DNA from: a virus
DNA length: 21,249 nt
Virus record (IMG/VR): IMGVR_UViG_3300027734_000357
Location: 1-21,249 of that record
Direction: 5' to 3' (one strand)
This document shows, piece by piece, positions 14,136 through 20,933 of this stretch; position 1 is the first letter of the stretch; each line of letters starts with the position of its first letter. The position numbers were made by a program, and so were the translations under genes. The notes beneath the pieces are model-generated. The model saw only the letters and a list, made by a program, of their open reading frames with translations. It was not told the origin of the DNA and made no database searches.

Positions 14136-15146
14136 TTACGGGTGAGTTGCTTTGTAGGCATCAAATTCTGCCTTGAGTTCTTGGATGGCTGCGGTTAGTG
14201 TGGCGACAAGGAACGACACGTCAATGCCTTGGTGAACAGGTTTGCCATCAGCGTCTACGGCATCTTTTGCACCCGTAACGGCGTGTGAACAAACTTCTGC
14301 TAGTTCGTGAGCAATGAATCCCTCACCATCAGAACCGTCCGCTTTCCACTTATAAGTAACGGGCTTGAGCGCAGCAACTTTAGCCAACGCTCCGGTCATA
14401 GGCACAATGTCTTGCTTTAAGCGGTAATCAGATGAAGTGTTGTAGGCGGTAGCCCCAGAACTAACGCTTACCGAACCAACTGTAGTGCCGTTACGTCTAA
14501 AGTTAAATATGGCTCCGTCACCATTAGACCTGTTTATATAAAAATCATTGATTAAAGAAAGTCTCGGCCCGAGTCCTGGTCTAAAACTAAATCCTGTTTG
14601 ACTTGTGGAGCTACCAATAAACGCATCTGTATCAGTTGTATTTAACATCCATGTGCCGCTGGAGTCAATACGCATTGCCTCCGCACCACCTTCAGTAAAG
14701 GCAATGGTGTCAGCAGCGGGGAAGAAGATGCCCGTGTTGGTGTCGCCTGTGGTGGTGATGGCAGGAGTACCAACTGCACCCGCTGGAAATACAACACCAC
14801 CAGTTCCTTTTGGCGTAAGTGCAATGCCAATGTTTGTGTCGCCACCTGTAGCAGATAACGCTGGTGCGCCACCAGTAGCTGCATTTGCAAGTGTCACCTC
14901 ATTCACAGCAGACGCGGTTGCAGATACCTTCAGCAACTCATTGCCGTTGGTGTCAATGACATCACCGACCAGCTTTAGGCTCTTACCAGATCCAACATTA
15001 AGACCGACGCTGGTTCCAGTTCCAGCCGCAGCGAATATTGCATCCACCGAGTCTAGGTCGGTGTTGATCTTTGTGCCCCAGGTGTCAGTGGATGCACCTA
15101 CCTCGGGCTTAGTAAGGAGTAGGTTGGTGGTGGTGGTATCAGCCAT
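14136..15146 (-). CDS. Tail fibre with C-terminal self-cleaving S74 chaperone domain, 336 residues
   Basis: GAGG lies 10 bases before the ATG at 15146. Residues about 1-45 ([20 protein letters not shown]) are a common phage fibre attachment module. A Gly/Thr-rich shaft (about 45-235) follows, with repeats such as TGDTN. The C-terminus (about 238-336) is an intramolecular chaperone of the peptidase S74 type. [10 protein letters not shown] gives the cleavage site Ser239-Asp240 and Lys244, the Ser-Lys dyad spaced five residues apart as in endosialidase. GEGFIAHEL and a final coiled-coil helix ([20 protein letters not shown]) are also typical. The chaperone trimerises the fibre and then cuts itself off. 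Confidence 0.85.
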
Positions 15147-15154
15147 GATTTACC

Positions 15155-16189
15155 TCATTGGGTTGTCCAATCCTTGGACGTTGCGCCTACTGGTGTCCAG
15201 GTGTCGGTGTTGTCAGAAATTATAGTCCAGCTGCGTGAATTTGGGGACTGCGTAGTCCATGTGGTAGTTGACGTACCAGAGTCAGTCCAAGTGTCTGAGT
15301 TGATTGGCTCCGGCTCCCACTTGAGCCGCTGGGTGATAAGGTCCAGTGCGCTGGCAGCTTCAGAAATTGATGCTAAAAAATCCAAGCCAGGCAAGTAATC
15401 GTCCAGCGCAGATCCTGATTCGGAGATGTTAGCTACAAAGATACCGACGTTTTCGTAGGCATCTATGGCTGCCAAAGACTCCGCAACATTCACCAAGAAT
15501 ACCGCCGTAACGCTTAATGAATCAGACGCCGTCACGGACTCAGAGTTAAACACTTGGTAGGTGAACGTCGGGAATAGTGACTCCGATGCGGTCAGCGCCT
15601 CCGCAACAGCGACAGACATAGTCAACGTGCCTATGCTTGCGTCTGACGCTGTAAGCGTTTCAGATACAGAGGCCACCGCCTCCAAGACATTGGTAATTGC
15701 GTCCGATACGCTCAGTGTCTCCGACACTTGGACAGGTATCGTCAAGATGCAAACTTGTGCATCTGCTGCGCTTGCACTTTCAGATACAAGCGCCAAAAAT
15801 ACGATAGTGCTGCTAAGTGAGTCGGATGCCGTTACAGATTCGCTGGCAAAGGCCACTGCCACCAGGCTGGTGTCTATTGCGTCAGCAGCAGATCCTGACT
15901 CAGCAATGCTTGCCACAATCGTGGCAATGTTGGTGAGGACGTCTGACGCTGATAGCGACTCAGATATTGTCAGTCCAAGCGTTGTAATCGCTGACTCAGC
16001 ATCTGCCGCTGATCCTGACTCGGATAAAGACTTGTCATATCCAAAACCACTTAGCAGAGACTCGTAACCGCCAATTCCATACGGTCCATATCCGTATAAA
16101 TTACTTCCATAGCCACCCTCAATAGCGTAGACAGAGTACGAATTCCCTGGTGCGCTGAATGGTGTACCGAATGGCGCAAGACCGAACAT
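15155..16189 (-). CDS. Repetitive virion or fibre protein with SES repeats and Trp decads, 344 residues
   Basis: The ATG at 16189 lies two bases after the previous stop. The protein has three parts. Residues 1-55 are Gly/Tyr/Pro-rich (YGSNLYGYGPYGIGGY). Residues 56-295 are twelve units of exactly 20 residues, consensus [SA]-E-[ST]-x-[ST]-A-x-D followed by a hydrophobic strand-like half. Residues 296-344 are five decads with Trp always at position 6 and mostly Thr after it (DTWTDSG, TTWTTQ, RSWTII, DTWTPVG, KDWTTQ). This looks like a rigid shaft followed by an adhesive or docking tip. It lies between two fibre genes, so it is probably part of the tail fibre complex. No enzyme motif is visible. 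Confidence 0.7.
   Translation of the reverse strand: MFGLAPFGTPFSAPGNSYSVYAIEGGYGSNLYGYGPYGIGGYESLLSGFGYDKSLSESGSAADAESAITTLGLTISESLSASDVLTNIATIVASIAESGSAADAIDTSLVAVAFASESVTASDSLSSTIVFLALVSESASAADAQVCILTIPVQVSETLSVSDAITNVLEAVASVSETLTASDASIGTLTMSVAVAEALTASESLFPTFTYQVFNSESVTASDSLSVTAVFLVNVAESLAAIDAYENVGIFVANISESGSALDDYLPGLDFLASISEAASALDLITQRLKWEPEPINSDTWTDSGTSTTTWTTQSPNSRSWTIISDNTDTWTPVGATSKDWTTQ
15158..15304 (-). repeat. Five 10-residue Trp repeats (residues 296-344)
   Basis: Trp occurs at residues 301, 311, 321, 331 and 341, exactly ten apart, followed by Thr each time. Neighbouring positions are Thr, Ser, Asp and Gly. The codons differ between units, so the pattern is held at protein level. 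Confidence 0.85.
15305..16024 (-). repeat. Twelve tandem 60-bp units encoding 20-residue SES repeats
   Basis: Twelve consecutive 20-residue units, for example SESLSASDVLTNIATIVASI and SESVTASDSLSSTIVFLALV, run without any insertion or deletion from residue 56 to 295. Position 1 is Ser or Ala, position 2 always Glu, position 8 nearly always Asp, and the second half is hydrophobic. The DNA units differ considerably, so the array is old. Confidence 0.9.
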
Positions 16190-16191
16190 GG

Positions 16192-16344
16192 TTAGTCAGC
16201 CGGTAACGGTGTGTTGCCTTCAGCAAGCCATTCCAAATATTGCTGGTAATCAGAATTGGCTGGGTCAAATGGAATGCAAGCACCATCACTTATGCGGATG
16301 ACGCTGGTTTGATTGCCCATGAATTGGGGTGATAGCTTGTACAT
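16192..16344 (-). CDS. Small phage protein after the tail fibre gene, 50 residues
   Basis: This reading is directly continuous: the fibre gene's TAA (16347-16345) is followed at once by ATG (16344). The product, [20 protein letters not shown] then [20 protein letters not shown] and [10 protein letters not shown], is a close match in style to a short phage family with the phrases RxSDGAxIPxDPxNxDYxxYLxW and EGNTPxPAD, often placed next to fibre genes. It may help fibre assembly or sit on the fibre. The next gene starts two bases after its stop. It is short but the signature is strong. Confidence 0.8.
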
Positions 16345-17559
16345 TTATAGCTCCGCAGAAAGCTGAGTCCCTACATTAGCAATTGCAAGTGCTTGATTGG
16401 TTGTTCTGCCAGTTAGACCATTAGCAGTTATTGGCGTTCTAGTTAATGATTGCCCAGCACCAGATATAGATTGGCTAGTCGCATTTTGACTGCCACCAAT
16501 AATGTCAATTGTAATATTGACCCCTGATGCCTGAGATAGTGTTGGGATTGTTCTCATTGAGACTGCATGAACTAGCGTGAAAAGCCCAGTTGTTGCGTTA
16601 TATGCTTGCCCACAAGTTCCTTTGAAATCACTTTGAAAATACCGTTGACAAAGTCCCAACTCAGTACCATACGAACGGTAATCAAAAGATGTAGCTACAC
16701 TGCCTTTTTCCAATTGGACATTCCCAATTACCCATGTTCCGCTGGTTTGAGCTCCGACAGTGAACAAGATTTCAATGCCCGTGGTAGCTGCCGCTGGAAT
16801 GCTAATTTGTGCGCTGTAGTTTGTCAGCGTTGATGTAACCGTGAATGTGCCTGTTGCAATCTGTGTCTTAGCTGACCATGTATCCGAACTAGTGGCATAG
16901 TTTGCAGTCCAAGTAACTGTGGTCAGTAATGAGTTGGAGATATTGACAGATAGCGTTGCTGTGCTGCCAGCCATGTCGAAACAATTTAATTGCTCAATGC
17001 GTTGACCAATACCAACTGCCGTAACAGATGCAGCGCCTGTAACCTGTAAGTTGAACTGGTTTGCATTAGACCCAGCCACCCTAGCAACCGTTACCGTTGC
17101 ACCAGTTGCATAGGCATACCAACGATCTAAAGCTGGGTAGGTTGGAACAGTAGTTGGAACCGCGTTTCCAGATGTTCCAGATGTTGCTCGTTGAATAATT
17201 TGCATTAGGCCGTTCATAAGACGGTTCTTAAACCCAAACATGCTGGGTGCGTCTGTATATACAGCTTTCCCTGCTGGATACGTTACAAAAACATTCTTTG
17301 ACCCAGCAGAAAAATTAACCAAACTTCCAGCATTACTCGATTTTAAAACCGTTGTTCTGGCGAGCGTTGTACCGGACGCGGTGTAAGTCCCTATTCCAGT
17401 TTCCCAATTTGTACCATCAGTAATGCAGTAGTAGGTTGTATTACCGTTGCCAATAGCGTCAAATGACTGATAGCCGGTTACAGCACCGGCAAGCGTTAGA
17501 GTACCAGTGCCAGTTGTAGTAGTGGTCTCCTGTACGCGATCATCAAGGACTAGAGCCAT
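16345..17559 (-). CDS. Tail fibre / receptor-binding protein, 404 residues
   Basis: AGGAG lies before the ATG at 17559. Residues 1-105 (MALVLDDRVQETTTTTGTGT, then CITDGTNWETGIGTYTASGT) form an N-terminal attachment domain seen in many phage fibres. Residues about 107-295 contain KNRLMNGLMQIIQRATSG, PALDRWYAY and the sequence VQLEKGSVATSFDYRSYGTE, which together mark a sugar-binding-module-like beta-sandwich found in phage fibres. The remaining C-terminal part (CQRYFQSDFKG onward) resembles a C-terminal trimer tip. Likely role: host surface recognition. No lyase or hydrolase motif is visible. The downstream 50-residue gene is coupled to it. Confidence 0.8.
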   Translation of the reverse strand: MALVLDDRVQETTTTTGTGTLTLAGAVTGYQSFDAIGNGNTTYYCITDGTNWETGIGTYTASGTTLARTTVLKSSNAGSLVNFSAGSKNVFVTYPAGKAVYTDAPSMFGFKNRLMNGLMQIIQRATSGTSGNAVPTTVPTYPALDRWYAYATGATVTVARVAGSNANQFNLQVTGAASVTAVGIGQRIEQLNCFDMAGSTATLSVNISNSLLTTVTWTANYATSSDTWSAKTQIATGTFTVTSTLTNYSAQISIPAAATTGIEILFTVGAQTSGTWVIGNVQLEKGSVATSFDYRSYGTELGLCQRYFQSDFKGTCGQAYNATTGLFTLVHAVSMRTIPTLSQASGVNITIDIIGGSQNATSQSISGAGQSLTRTPITANGLTGRTTNQALAIANVGTQLSAEL

Positions 17560-18341: not shown

Positions 18342-18962
18342 TTAACCGAAAGACTTGGCGCGTGACTTTAGAACGCCGCCGCTAGTCGCTCCGCGCTCGT
18401 CTGCAATTTGCAGTTCCTCTATGCCTGTCTTGTACAGGCCAGCCCACACTTGGATTCTTGCGTCGTCCTGTAGGTAGGGGGCAGCCTGTAGCAAAGAACC
18501 GTACAGGTACACGTCAGGCGCTTTGGTGAGCAGCCAGTTGGTGGTGTTGGACGTGGATAGCTTGGCGAGTTTGCTGTAGTAGATCAACTCGCCCGTGTAG
18601 CTGGAGTCAGGGATAGGCACAACGCGGAGTTGCGACCCGACTACGCCAAAGAACTTAGGCTTCCCGCTGGATGTGTACTGAGTCAGCAAGTCATCCAGAC
18701 TGTCAATGGTCTCAAACTGCAACGGACTGACGGGGTTTGTGTCCATCTTGAACGTCCGCGCCTCCAGAAAGTCGCCTGGCGTTGCGTTGTACTCGGCGTC
18801 GATGGTTGCCGTTGCGCGGGTAATCATCTGGGTGGTGCGCAGTGTTCGCTCCATTTGCGCTTCAGCAAGAGAAACAAAGTCAGTGATGGCAGACGTGAGA
18901 TCACTACGGTTGAGCCAATCGGCCACCGAGGCTTTCAGTTCAGCGTAGGTGCTAAGTGCCAT
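18342..18962 (-). CDS. Head-tail adaptor / neck protein (SU10-type adaptor), 206 residues
   Basis: The start at 18962 lies inside the end of the glycosyltransferase gene (11-bp overlap). The N-terminus STYAELKASVADWLNRSDLT followed by FVSLAEAQMERTLR is the hallmark of a phage adaptor family, where a helix pair opens with TYxxLxxxVxxWLNR. The middle part (LQFETIDSLDDLL and FFGVVGSQLRVVPIP) and the tail (YLYGSLLQAAPYLQDDARI) fit the same family. It would form the ring below the portal. The gene order capsid, adaptor, tail fits this role. Confidence 0.78.
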   Translation of the reverse strand: MALSTYAELKASVADWLNRSDLTSAITDFVSLAEAQMERTLRTTQMITRATATIDAEYNATPGDFLEARTFKMDTNPVSPLQFETIDSLDDLLTQYTSSGKPKFFGVVGSQLRVVPIPDSSYTGELIYYSKLAKLSTSNTTNWLLTKAPDVYLYGSLLQAAPYLQDDARIQVWAGLYKTGIEELQIADERGATSGGVLKSRAKSFG

Positions 18963-19617
18963 GCTCTGCCTTTTCCTTCTCGATGTCGCGCATCATCCAG
19001 GTGTGGTCGTGCTTGAATTCAAACGTCCCGATGTGGCCTATCTCTTTGCTCACGTCGTGATCTATCCAGATTTTATACCCTGCGTCCTGCGCCTTCCGGC
19101 AGAAGAAGATGTCCTCTCCGATGTAGCCTCGGGCGTCGGTGCGCCAGGGAGTCTCGAACCAGGGTTCGGTCAGCTTCTCAAAGACGTTGCGCTTGATCAG
19201 CATCACGCCCATTCCGATGCTGCCTACTTCCTCAATGCCGGCTGACTCCGGCATGGTGTAGATCAGTTCGCGCTTGCCATCAGAATCGTACTTCTGCGCA
19301 GTCGGGCCGGTAGGGATGCGGCGTCTGGCGCAGTTGGTCGCCACGATGTCCAGGTCATGCTTGAGCAGGCGCTCGACCATGTCCTGCGGGAACGTCATGT
19401 CTGAGTCGATGAACAGGATATGGGTGCAGCCCTCGGCCATCGCATCCAGCGCTAAGTCAGCACGCTGGTTTTGGATCAGAGTACCCTGCATGATTTTGAG
19501 AGACACTGCATCTGTCGTGTTCAGCGTGTGGTAGCAAACCATATTCACCAAGCAATAGGTGAAGTTGGCGTGAACCATGTCACGGGCTGGGGTGCAGACT
19601 GCAATGTAGTTGTTCAT
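18952..19617 (-). CDS. GT-A glycosyltransferase, 221 residues
   Basis: The ATG at 19617 overlaps the preceding stop (ATGA). Family 2-like GT-A features are visible: a first strand YIAVCTPARDM (residues 4-14), LDAMAEGCTHILFIDSDMTF with the metal-binding DxD motif at Asp71-Ser72-Asp73, and GYIGEDIFFCRKAQDAGYKI (residues 164-183) where Asp169 is the usual catalytic base. GHIG (194-197) is a common fourth motif. No transmembrane segment is seen. It would transfer a sugar from a nucleotide sugar, with an unknown acceptor. Its place between capsid and neck genes suggests modification of virion proteins or host surface. The assignment to the enzyme class is solid, the substrate is open. Confidence 0.82.
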   Translation of the reverse strand: MNNYIAVCTPARDMVHANFTYCLVNMVCYHTLNTTDAVSLKIMQGTLIQNQRADLALDAMAEGCTHILFIDSDMTFPQDMVERLLKHDLDIVATNCARRRIPTGPTAQKYDSDGKRELIYTMPESAGIEEVGSIGMGVMLIKRNVFEKLTEPWFETPWRTDARGYIGEDIFFCRKAQDAGYKIWIDHDVSKEIGHIGTFEFKHDHTWMMRDIEKEKAEHGT

Positions 19618-19970: not shown

Positions 19971-20933
19971 TTACGACGTAATCAGGTCAGCTGCCAGACC
20001 GTGGGCATTTTCTGCCAACACCTTATGTCCCCACTCCACCAGCAACATACGCTTCTCAGCGTCGCCGGTCTTAGCGAGTTCAACTTGCTGGTAAGGACGC
20101 AGCACAACCATCTTGGCGTACTCAGGATCGAGTACCCATGCATCACGCTCACGTTGGAACCTGTTCGCAATAACGGCCACGGTTCCGAAATCGCTGACGT
20201 AAAGATCCACGGCGCCAATTAAAGTTGCAGGCTTCTCACCGCCATTGATGTTGAAACGGCTGGAGGCGATACCGGCAAATCCGCTGACGCGCTGCTTATT
20301 AACAGGACCGGTCATCAGAATCTTAGGAGAACCGCCAGCAGCCCACACTTGCTGAATCACATTCTTGAGAATGGTCTCAGTAAAAGTGCGCACGTTGCCG
20401 TCGGTACGGGCGCTGTTTGGTAGCGTGGTGTACGACGGGTTTGTGCCGTTGGTCTGCATATCGACGTTGGTCTTGACCCACGCGCCAAGGGATGCAGTTC
20501 CGCGTGCAACGCTGGTGCTACCAGCAGCAGCCACCGCGCCGTTGAGCATGGTGAACTCTTGGTCGCGTTTCAGTTCGGCGCTACGCTTGGCGATCTGGTA
20601 AGCCAGTTCGCTGCGACGGCCAGCCTTGTTGACCACCTCTTCAGTCGCGGACAAGATGATGGTCTTGCGCGAAATCTGAGCGTAGTTTTGCAGGCGAACG
20701 GTTGCGGTAACAGCGTCAAAAGAGGCAACGTCATCGCCCTCGATCTGCTTGTTAGCTGCTGCTGCGGCCAGGGTATCGCTTTGGAATTCAAACAGCGAAT
20801 TGCTGATTGACTCACGCCCGATGTTACTCATGTAAGGAGTTTCTTCGGGTGCGATATTGGTGATGATGTTTGACAGGTCTTCACGGATACCTTTGGCGTC
20901 AAAGGTCGTGAAGGTATTGGTTACGATTGCCAT
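19971..20933 (-). CDS. Major capsid protein (SU10-like, DUF5309 family), 320 residues
   Basis: The start at 20933 follows the scaffold-like gene's stop by seven bases. The N-terminus MAIVTNTFTTFDAKGIREDL, then NIAPEETPYMSNIGRESISN and SLFEFQSDTLAAAAANKQIE, is the signature of the SU10-type major capsid family: a region with TPxxSxIG followed by FExQxDxLAAA. Further family-like phrases are YAQISRKTIILSATEEVVNK, GSPKILMTGPVNKQ and LDPEYAKMVVLRPYQQVELA. The HK97 fold is expected, though no N-terminal delta domain is visible. The length is normal. An intrinsic terminator follows directly, so transcription can be peaked on this gene. Confidence 0.9.
   Translation of the reverse strand: MAIVTNTFTTFDAKGIREDLSNIITNIAPEETPYMSNIGRESISNSLFEFQSDTLAAAAANKQIEGDDVASFDAVTATVRLQNYAQISRKTIILSATEEVVNKAGRRSELAYQIAKRSAELKRDQEFTMLNGAVAAAGSTSVARGTASLGAWVKTNVDMQTNGTNPSYTTLPNSARTDGNVRTFTETILKNVIQQVWAAGGSPKILMTGPVNKQRVSGFAGIASSRFNINGGEKPATLIGAVDLYVSDFGTVAVIANRFQRERDAWVLDPEYAKMVVLRPYQQVELAKTGDAEKRMLLVEWGHKVLAENAHGLAADLITS

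Follow-up and report, generated by a model that had tools for sequence, protein, structure and literature searches.

Genes and features of the locus

The window (the whole stretch of 21,249 nucleotides analysed here, positions 1 to 21,249 of IMG/VR virus record IMGVR_UViG_3300027734_000357) belongs to an aquatic-type phage and encodes a repeat protein of 344 aa (P0001) at 15155..16189 on the minus strand. All other features described here are on the minus strand as well, unless stated. The protein opens with an N-terminal tag, MFGLAPFGTPFSA (residues 1-13; 16151..16189), that has the family pattern MFGxxxFSxxPFS and was found by hhalign, blastp and a tag search also on sequence-unrelated repeat proteins. 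Following this are a Tyr-Gly-rich (YG) block, GGYGSNLYGYGPYGIGGY (residues 25-42; 16064..16117), twelve 20-residue units (residues 54-293; 15311..16030) with the consensus xVSESLSASDAxxxxLTFVA, delimited by autocorrelation, shuffles and a column profile, and five tryptophan decads (residues 294-343; 15161..15310). The reading frame is kept in ~40 viral contigs and, judged from a dN/dS of ~0.10-0.13 against six close relatives, is under purifying selection. An antisense open frame of 168 aa lies opposite the repeats (window 15561-16067, plus strand). This frame is apparently a by-product of repeat codon usage and was not counted as a gene.

Directly upstream of the repeat gene is a small ORF of 50 aa (16192..16344; phrog_20370, function unknown). 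Similar small ORFs occur after the tail-fibre genes of phage Venkman (gp56 and gp52), an analogy that suggests a putative fibre-assembly helper. Beyond it lies the gene for a tail-fibre-like protein (16345..17559; phrog_4492), and on the other side of the repeat gene is a fibre with a C-terminal Peptidase_S74 chaperone domain (14136..15146). In many relatives, the N-terminal 40-100 residues of these two fibres alone can be aligned (~100 aa in the tail-fibre-like protein). Also encoded are an SU10-type adaptor protein (18342..18962; PF24175, E 3.2e-37) and the major capsid protein (MCP; 19971..20933; phrog_1328, E 1.1e-94). Placed between the capsid and adaptor genes is a gene for a glycosyltransferase-like protein (18952-19617; phrog_1574, more weakly phrog_34859) that is 94-98% conserved among phages with a repeat protein of the window's type (A-type relatives). 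Among A-type relatives with enough flanking sequence for synteny comparison, the gene order is kept: capsid protein, small ORF, glycosyltransferase-like protein, SU10 adaptor, phrog_8123, fibre, repeat protein and S74 fibre, and from there on to holin, endolysin, a BclA_C-like protein and a nozzle-like protein.

Conservation is very uneven across this cassette. With the near-duplicate L001 set aside, the MCP is 91-98% identical among A-type relatives, versus 39-90% for the repeat protein. Capsid and adaptor proteins are more than 90% identical where both flanking fibres vary strongly, and the three consecutive genes can thus be considered a variable fibre module. The contrast matches the pattern of a host-contact region, without thereby proving contact. 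We considered, as an alternative to a tail part, a fibre or decoration protein attached to the capsid. The cassette also contains head genes, and in one related phage (L045) the repeat gene's immediate upstream neighbour matches a "head protein" family (phrog_240). Against this, variable fibre genes immediately flank the repeat gene on both sides in A-type relatives, and we regard a location on the capsid as unlikely.

Repeat units and A-type relatives

A preliminary description of the sequence had reported twelve exact 20-residue repeats, and the autocorrelation bears this out. Self-identity of the protein is 0.368 at offset 20, 0.330 at offset 40 and 0.294 at offset 60, versus a maximum of 0.20 at any offset in 2000 shuffled sequences. 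This control, together with the occurrence of the same period in unrelated repeats, rules out a chance origin of the period. Position 4 of the unit is glutamate and position 10 is aspartate or glutamate in 12/12 units, position 8 is alanine in 11/12, and S/T-A-S/A-D/E occupies positions 7-10 in most units. As had been noted, the units have diverged at the DNA level: mean identity between units is 44% for DNA and 34% for protein (63% and 80% in the best pair), so the units are old.

Two details of the earlier account need revision. The five decads stand, while the tryptophans number six, at an exact spacing of 10 (W291, 301, 311, 321, 331 and 341), with the first of these belonging to unit 12. 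The ladder therefore has the spacing and the even number that are typical of the family (see below). Perfect register was claimed over 289 residues; it is indeed exact in the window's protein, where the block (54-343) measures 290 residues, but it is not universal, since a more distant clade (L025) has two single-residue insertions that break the register in the last units.

Contig scans identified ~40 IMG/VR loci with relatives whose best segment is 45-100% identical. Comparison of unit number between related phages, proposed earlier as a check, proved informative: the relatives carry 8, 12 or 13 units and the large repeat gaps in their alignments are of 20 or 80 residues, and length varies mainly by whole 20-residue units. 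The YG block, including its YG positions, and the Trp ladder are invariant in the alignment of A-type relatives (A3).

The expectation that no named domain would be found held for Pfam, PHROG, NCBIfam and PDB sequences, although uncharacterised relatives are widespread. Profiles A2 and A3 returned insignificant matches only in a PDB sequence search. A search of a phage collection with the window's repeat protein identified no relatives, nor did the A1 profile or an S-type protein (described below) find any in 85k bacterial and archaeal genomes; thus, these genomes give no clue to the host or to prophages. Pfam and PHROG searches of the repeat protein identified no C-terminal Peptidase_S74 domain. 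Pfam gave no match to the DUF2807/GIN-type putative adhesin family (PF10988), which reaches E 0.15, short of the gathering cut-off, for Venkman gp51. The RTX beta-roll nonapeptide GGxGxDxUx is absent on reading the translation, and the period is 20 rather than 9.

Exchange of repeat types

In two loci (L202/L215), a different repeat protein, which we refer to as S-type, occupies the slot directly preceding the S74 fibre gene. These phages share with the window an MCP that is 84-89% identical (partial MCP alignments) and an adaptor that is 68-72% identical, so the type of repeat is swapped in one slot between phages with closely similar capsid proteins. S-type proteins consist of MAAYGSGYYGGGNYSYG, then 20-residue units with the consensus IGAFAISSTSSVSVAGQRVA, then Trp decads, and a Tyr-Gly-rich block near their N-terminus is similar to that of the window's protein. 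The two types have homologous C-terminal ladders, which hhalign aligns at all six Trp (probability 98.2, E 3.1e-14) and blastp matches at 6.6e-10. The N-terminal tag is shared with two further types. For the V-type, represented by Venkman gp51, hhalign of A3 versus A2 aligns 18 columns (probability 95.3, E 2.4e-8), and for the T-type (L032), whose unit length is 22 residues, blastp gives E 2.5e-8 over residues 1-41. TGV-type repeats occur in a related protein of Roseobacter phage CRP-345.

The unit profiles of S and V match each other with a score reached by 0/300 permutations. The A unit profile matches neither the S nor the V profile beyond the permutation control, and homology of the A unit to those units was thus not detected by profile comparison. 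Overall, this is a modular unnamed family in which an N-terminal tag is followed by n units, 20 or sometimes 22 residues long, and by a C-terminal Trp ladder spaced by 10 or 11. Many aquatic phages retain this architecture and its spacing but exchange the sequence of the repeats.

Variants of the plan were also observed. The type of L032 and L131-L149 ends in RTVYV-like or Tyr decads in place of Trp decads, and thus the ladder residue itself is exchangeable. Six loci (L306, L315, L341, L365, L368 and L381) encode tagged proteins of 81-100 aa with Trp pairs and without a repeat shaft. These could represent minimal caps or variants that lack the shaft.

To describe period and ladder spacing across the family, we compiled 57 non-redundant complete proteins from a contig search with the tag alone and from the loci of earlier family searches; the counts are descriptive, as the sequences are related and some of them were retrieved through family searches. 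The period is 20 residues in 44 proteins, 22 in five, 23 in one and weak in one, and six short proteins have none, so 44 of the 51 repeat-bearing tagged proteins share the period of the window's protein. This agrees, as does the preponderance of whole-unit differences among A-type relatives, with the earlier claim that repeat geometry is under selection.

The composition of the repeat protein is rich in Ser, Ala and Thr, as would be expected if it were a low-complexity, repeat-expanded protein with no selected geometry. However, dN/dS is ~0.1, the YG block and Trp ladder are invariant, indels are mostly whole units, the period is constant across unrelated sequences, and the units are old and divergent rather than recently amplified. 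We consider this explanation highly improbable.

The Trp ladder is spaced by 10 in 35 of the 57 proteins and by 11 in 19. Ladders with spacing 10 contain an even number of tryptophans in 34/35 cases (two in 8, three in 1, four in 15, five in 0 and six in 11), compared with 13/19 even and 6 odd among ladders with spacing 11 (Fisher exact ~0.006, calculated by hand and ignoring relatedness). S-type proteins add three more odd-numbered ladders. The idea that decads are half-units thus finds partial agreement. The even-number rule for 10-spaced ladders fits it, but in 17 proteins an 11-spaced ladder occurs on a 20-residue shaft, and ladder and shaft therefore need not share register. A strict rule in which ladder spacing is always half of the shaft period is ruled out by the 20/11 and 22/10 combinations. 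From the sequence patterns, two decads appear to behave as one 20-residue unit, and the 20/11 combinations indicate that this link is not obligatory.

Predicted fold

The AlphaFold2 model of the window's repeat protein, based on an alignment of 14 sequences, was unusable (mean pLDDT 32), with mixed helix and strand. The S-type protein of L215, for which 34 diverse sequences were available, was predicted as a single-chain beta-solenoid with pLDDT ~80-94 over residues 21-150 and low values at the N-terminus and the Trp decads. Each 20 residues of this model contain one 9-residue and one 5-residue strand. For the earlier suggestion that stacked units form a rigid shaft, the backing is thus indirect and comes from the sister protein; the protein's own model gives no help. 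We infer a solenoid fold for the A-type units of the window by transfer from the modelled S-type.

A second aligner (VIA-align) matched the S-type model to beta-solenoids of Bacteroidetes putative adhesins (4opw, 3lyc, 3ljy and 3jx8) with Z 16-18 and rmsd 2.5-2.6 A. Foldseek against the PDB gave no E below 0.3, and E above 1 for the adhesin solenoids. The likeness to these adhesins is that of the S-type model and not of the window's protein, and no sequence relation was detected. In a viral structure library, the best matches of the S-type model are uncharacterised Caudovirales proteins.

Shafts of most phage fibres are trimeric. The window's protein could likewise be an interdigitated homotrimeric fibre, resembling a beta-spiral or a triple beta-helix, whose single chains do not fold on their own. 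The failure of the monomer prediction would be consistent with this, as would the flanking fibre genes, one of which encodes an S74 chaperone. Against this, the predicted structure of the S-type sister, which has the same slot and a homologous Trp tail, is a compact solenoid of one chain. We therefore view a homotrimer as unlikely. Covariation at offset 20 has a Neff of 7.7, too few sequences to tell a solenoid from other packing.

It could also be proposed that A-type units are alpha-helical, each 20-residue unit containing an amphipathic helix that begins at a Ser-x-x-Asp capping box (SASD). The S/T-A-S/A-D/E motif at positions 7-10 has the required form, and the low-confidence helices of the failed AlphaFold2 model keep a constant register. 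The hydrophobic pattern of the A unit peaks at 106-110 degrees, which is not the beta angle, with z 8.6 versus residue shuffles. This signal is only nominal, as it is non-significant under column permutation (p 0.22), and the sister families show beta periodicity. Moreover, Gly, Pro and Asn occur at unit positions 14-17, the segments are beta-branched and Tyr/Phe-rich, and unit numbers of 8, 12 and 13 lack the parity that an up-down helical arrangement would favour. In other tagged proteins, A-type units have G, N and P at one same point (e.g., TDAQTGNVNYPVTVTE in L373), a placement that favours strand plus turn over helix. Helical units seem quite unlikely, and the beta-solenoid is retained as the preferred fold.

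Proposed role and comparison with known systems

We consider it moderately probable that the repeat protein is a virion appendage of a probably short-tailed phage, likely a tail-fibre shaft or adhesin with a docking tag, a solenoid rod and a Trp-decad end. A conserved part of the tail would be the docking site of the tag, perhaps together with the YG block. From the n units of 20 residues a rod would arise, most likely folded as a parallel beta-solenoid whose coils would each comprise two halves of ~10 residues. The Trp decads would be half-coils that prolong this rod, closing or presenting its tip. The sequence of the rod would be exchangeable between phages, and its length would shift by whole coils. 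We infer the presence of the protein in the virion, its oligomeric state and receptor contact. A literature search found no proteomic data on carriers of the plan. Among cultured phages, the plan is carried by the short-tailed Venkman and MEP401/402 (PMC10580990), with gp59 as the protein in MEP401.

Among the closest described arrangements is that of Methylophilales phage Venkman EXVC282S. Like the window's protein, its gp51 has the N-terminal tag (MYGLSAFSQSPYSALG), 20-residue units and a 10-spaced Trp ladder (4 Trp), and its gene follows a tail fibre and a small ORF (59 aa). In contrast, it has fewer units, and its unit (ASISGTATLTADGLRIRFGN) cannot be related to the A unit by profile. The annotation of gp51 as "putative E3 ubiquitin-protein ligase HERC6" is not credible. 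GenBank names such as "HERC6" and "serine-rich adhesin" on family members (L047 14723-15439; L048 4001-4777; L049 3821-4651) look like low-complexity misannotation.

The S-type proteins (MW202879 gene UOF82909.1; L044, L199-L278) are uncharacterised. They share with the A-type a slot beside homologous MCP, adaptor and S74 fibre genes, the YG block and the homologous Trp tail, and differ in lacking the MFG tag, in unit sequence and in being predicted as a beta-solenoid. Triple-stranded beta-helix shafts of the T4 gp5 type have a repeat shorter than 20 residues. The C-terminal domain of gp5 is like the window's protein by analogy, as a repetitive beta shaft of a tail part; in the known case three chains are interwound (PMC4576200).

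A repetitive fibre shaft or a beta-solenoid phage adhesin is a familiar kind of structure. What is new here is that unrelated rods are exchanged on a tag and ladder common to them, and that the spacing is quantised. As a tentative extension, these proteins may form a plug-in appendage system of aquatic short-tailed phages, with one docking tag and one Trp-ladder cap and with interchangeable, unrelated rods quantised in 20-residue coils. If so, a rod could be swapped or resized with the tail untouched, and rods would perhaps differ in secondary structure.

Widespread in contigs from viral metagenomes, the family also occurs in cultured OM43 phages with short tails, yet Pfam, PHROG and NCBIfam contain no entry for it. 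Phage CRP-345, which encodes one of the related proteins, is mentioned in a paper on HMO-2011-type phages that ranks this group with the most widespread and abundant (PMC9038755). For the fold, the quantised period and the even-number ladder rule set concrete limits that can be checked, and tag and ladder combined are usable as a search signature. The slot that the repeat gene occupies next to the tail fibres changes fast and is a candidate attachment determinant in phages whose hosts are mostly uncultured.
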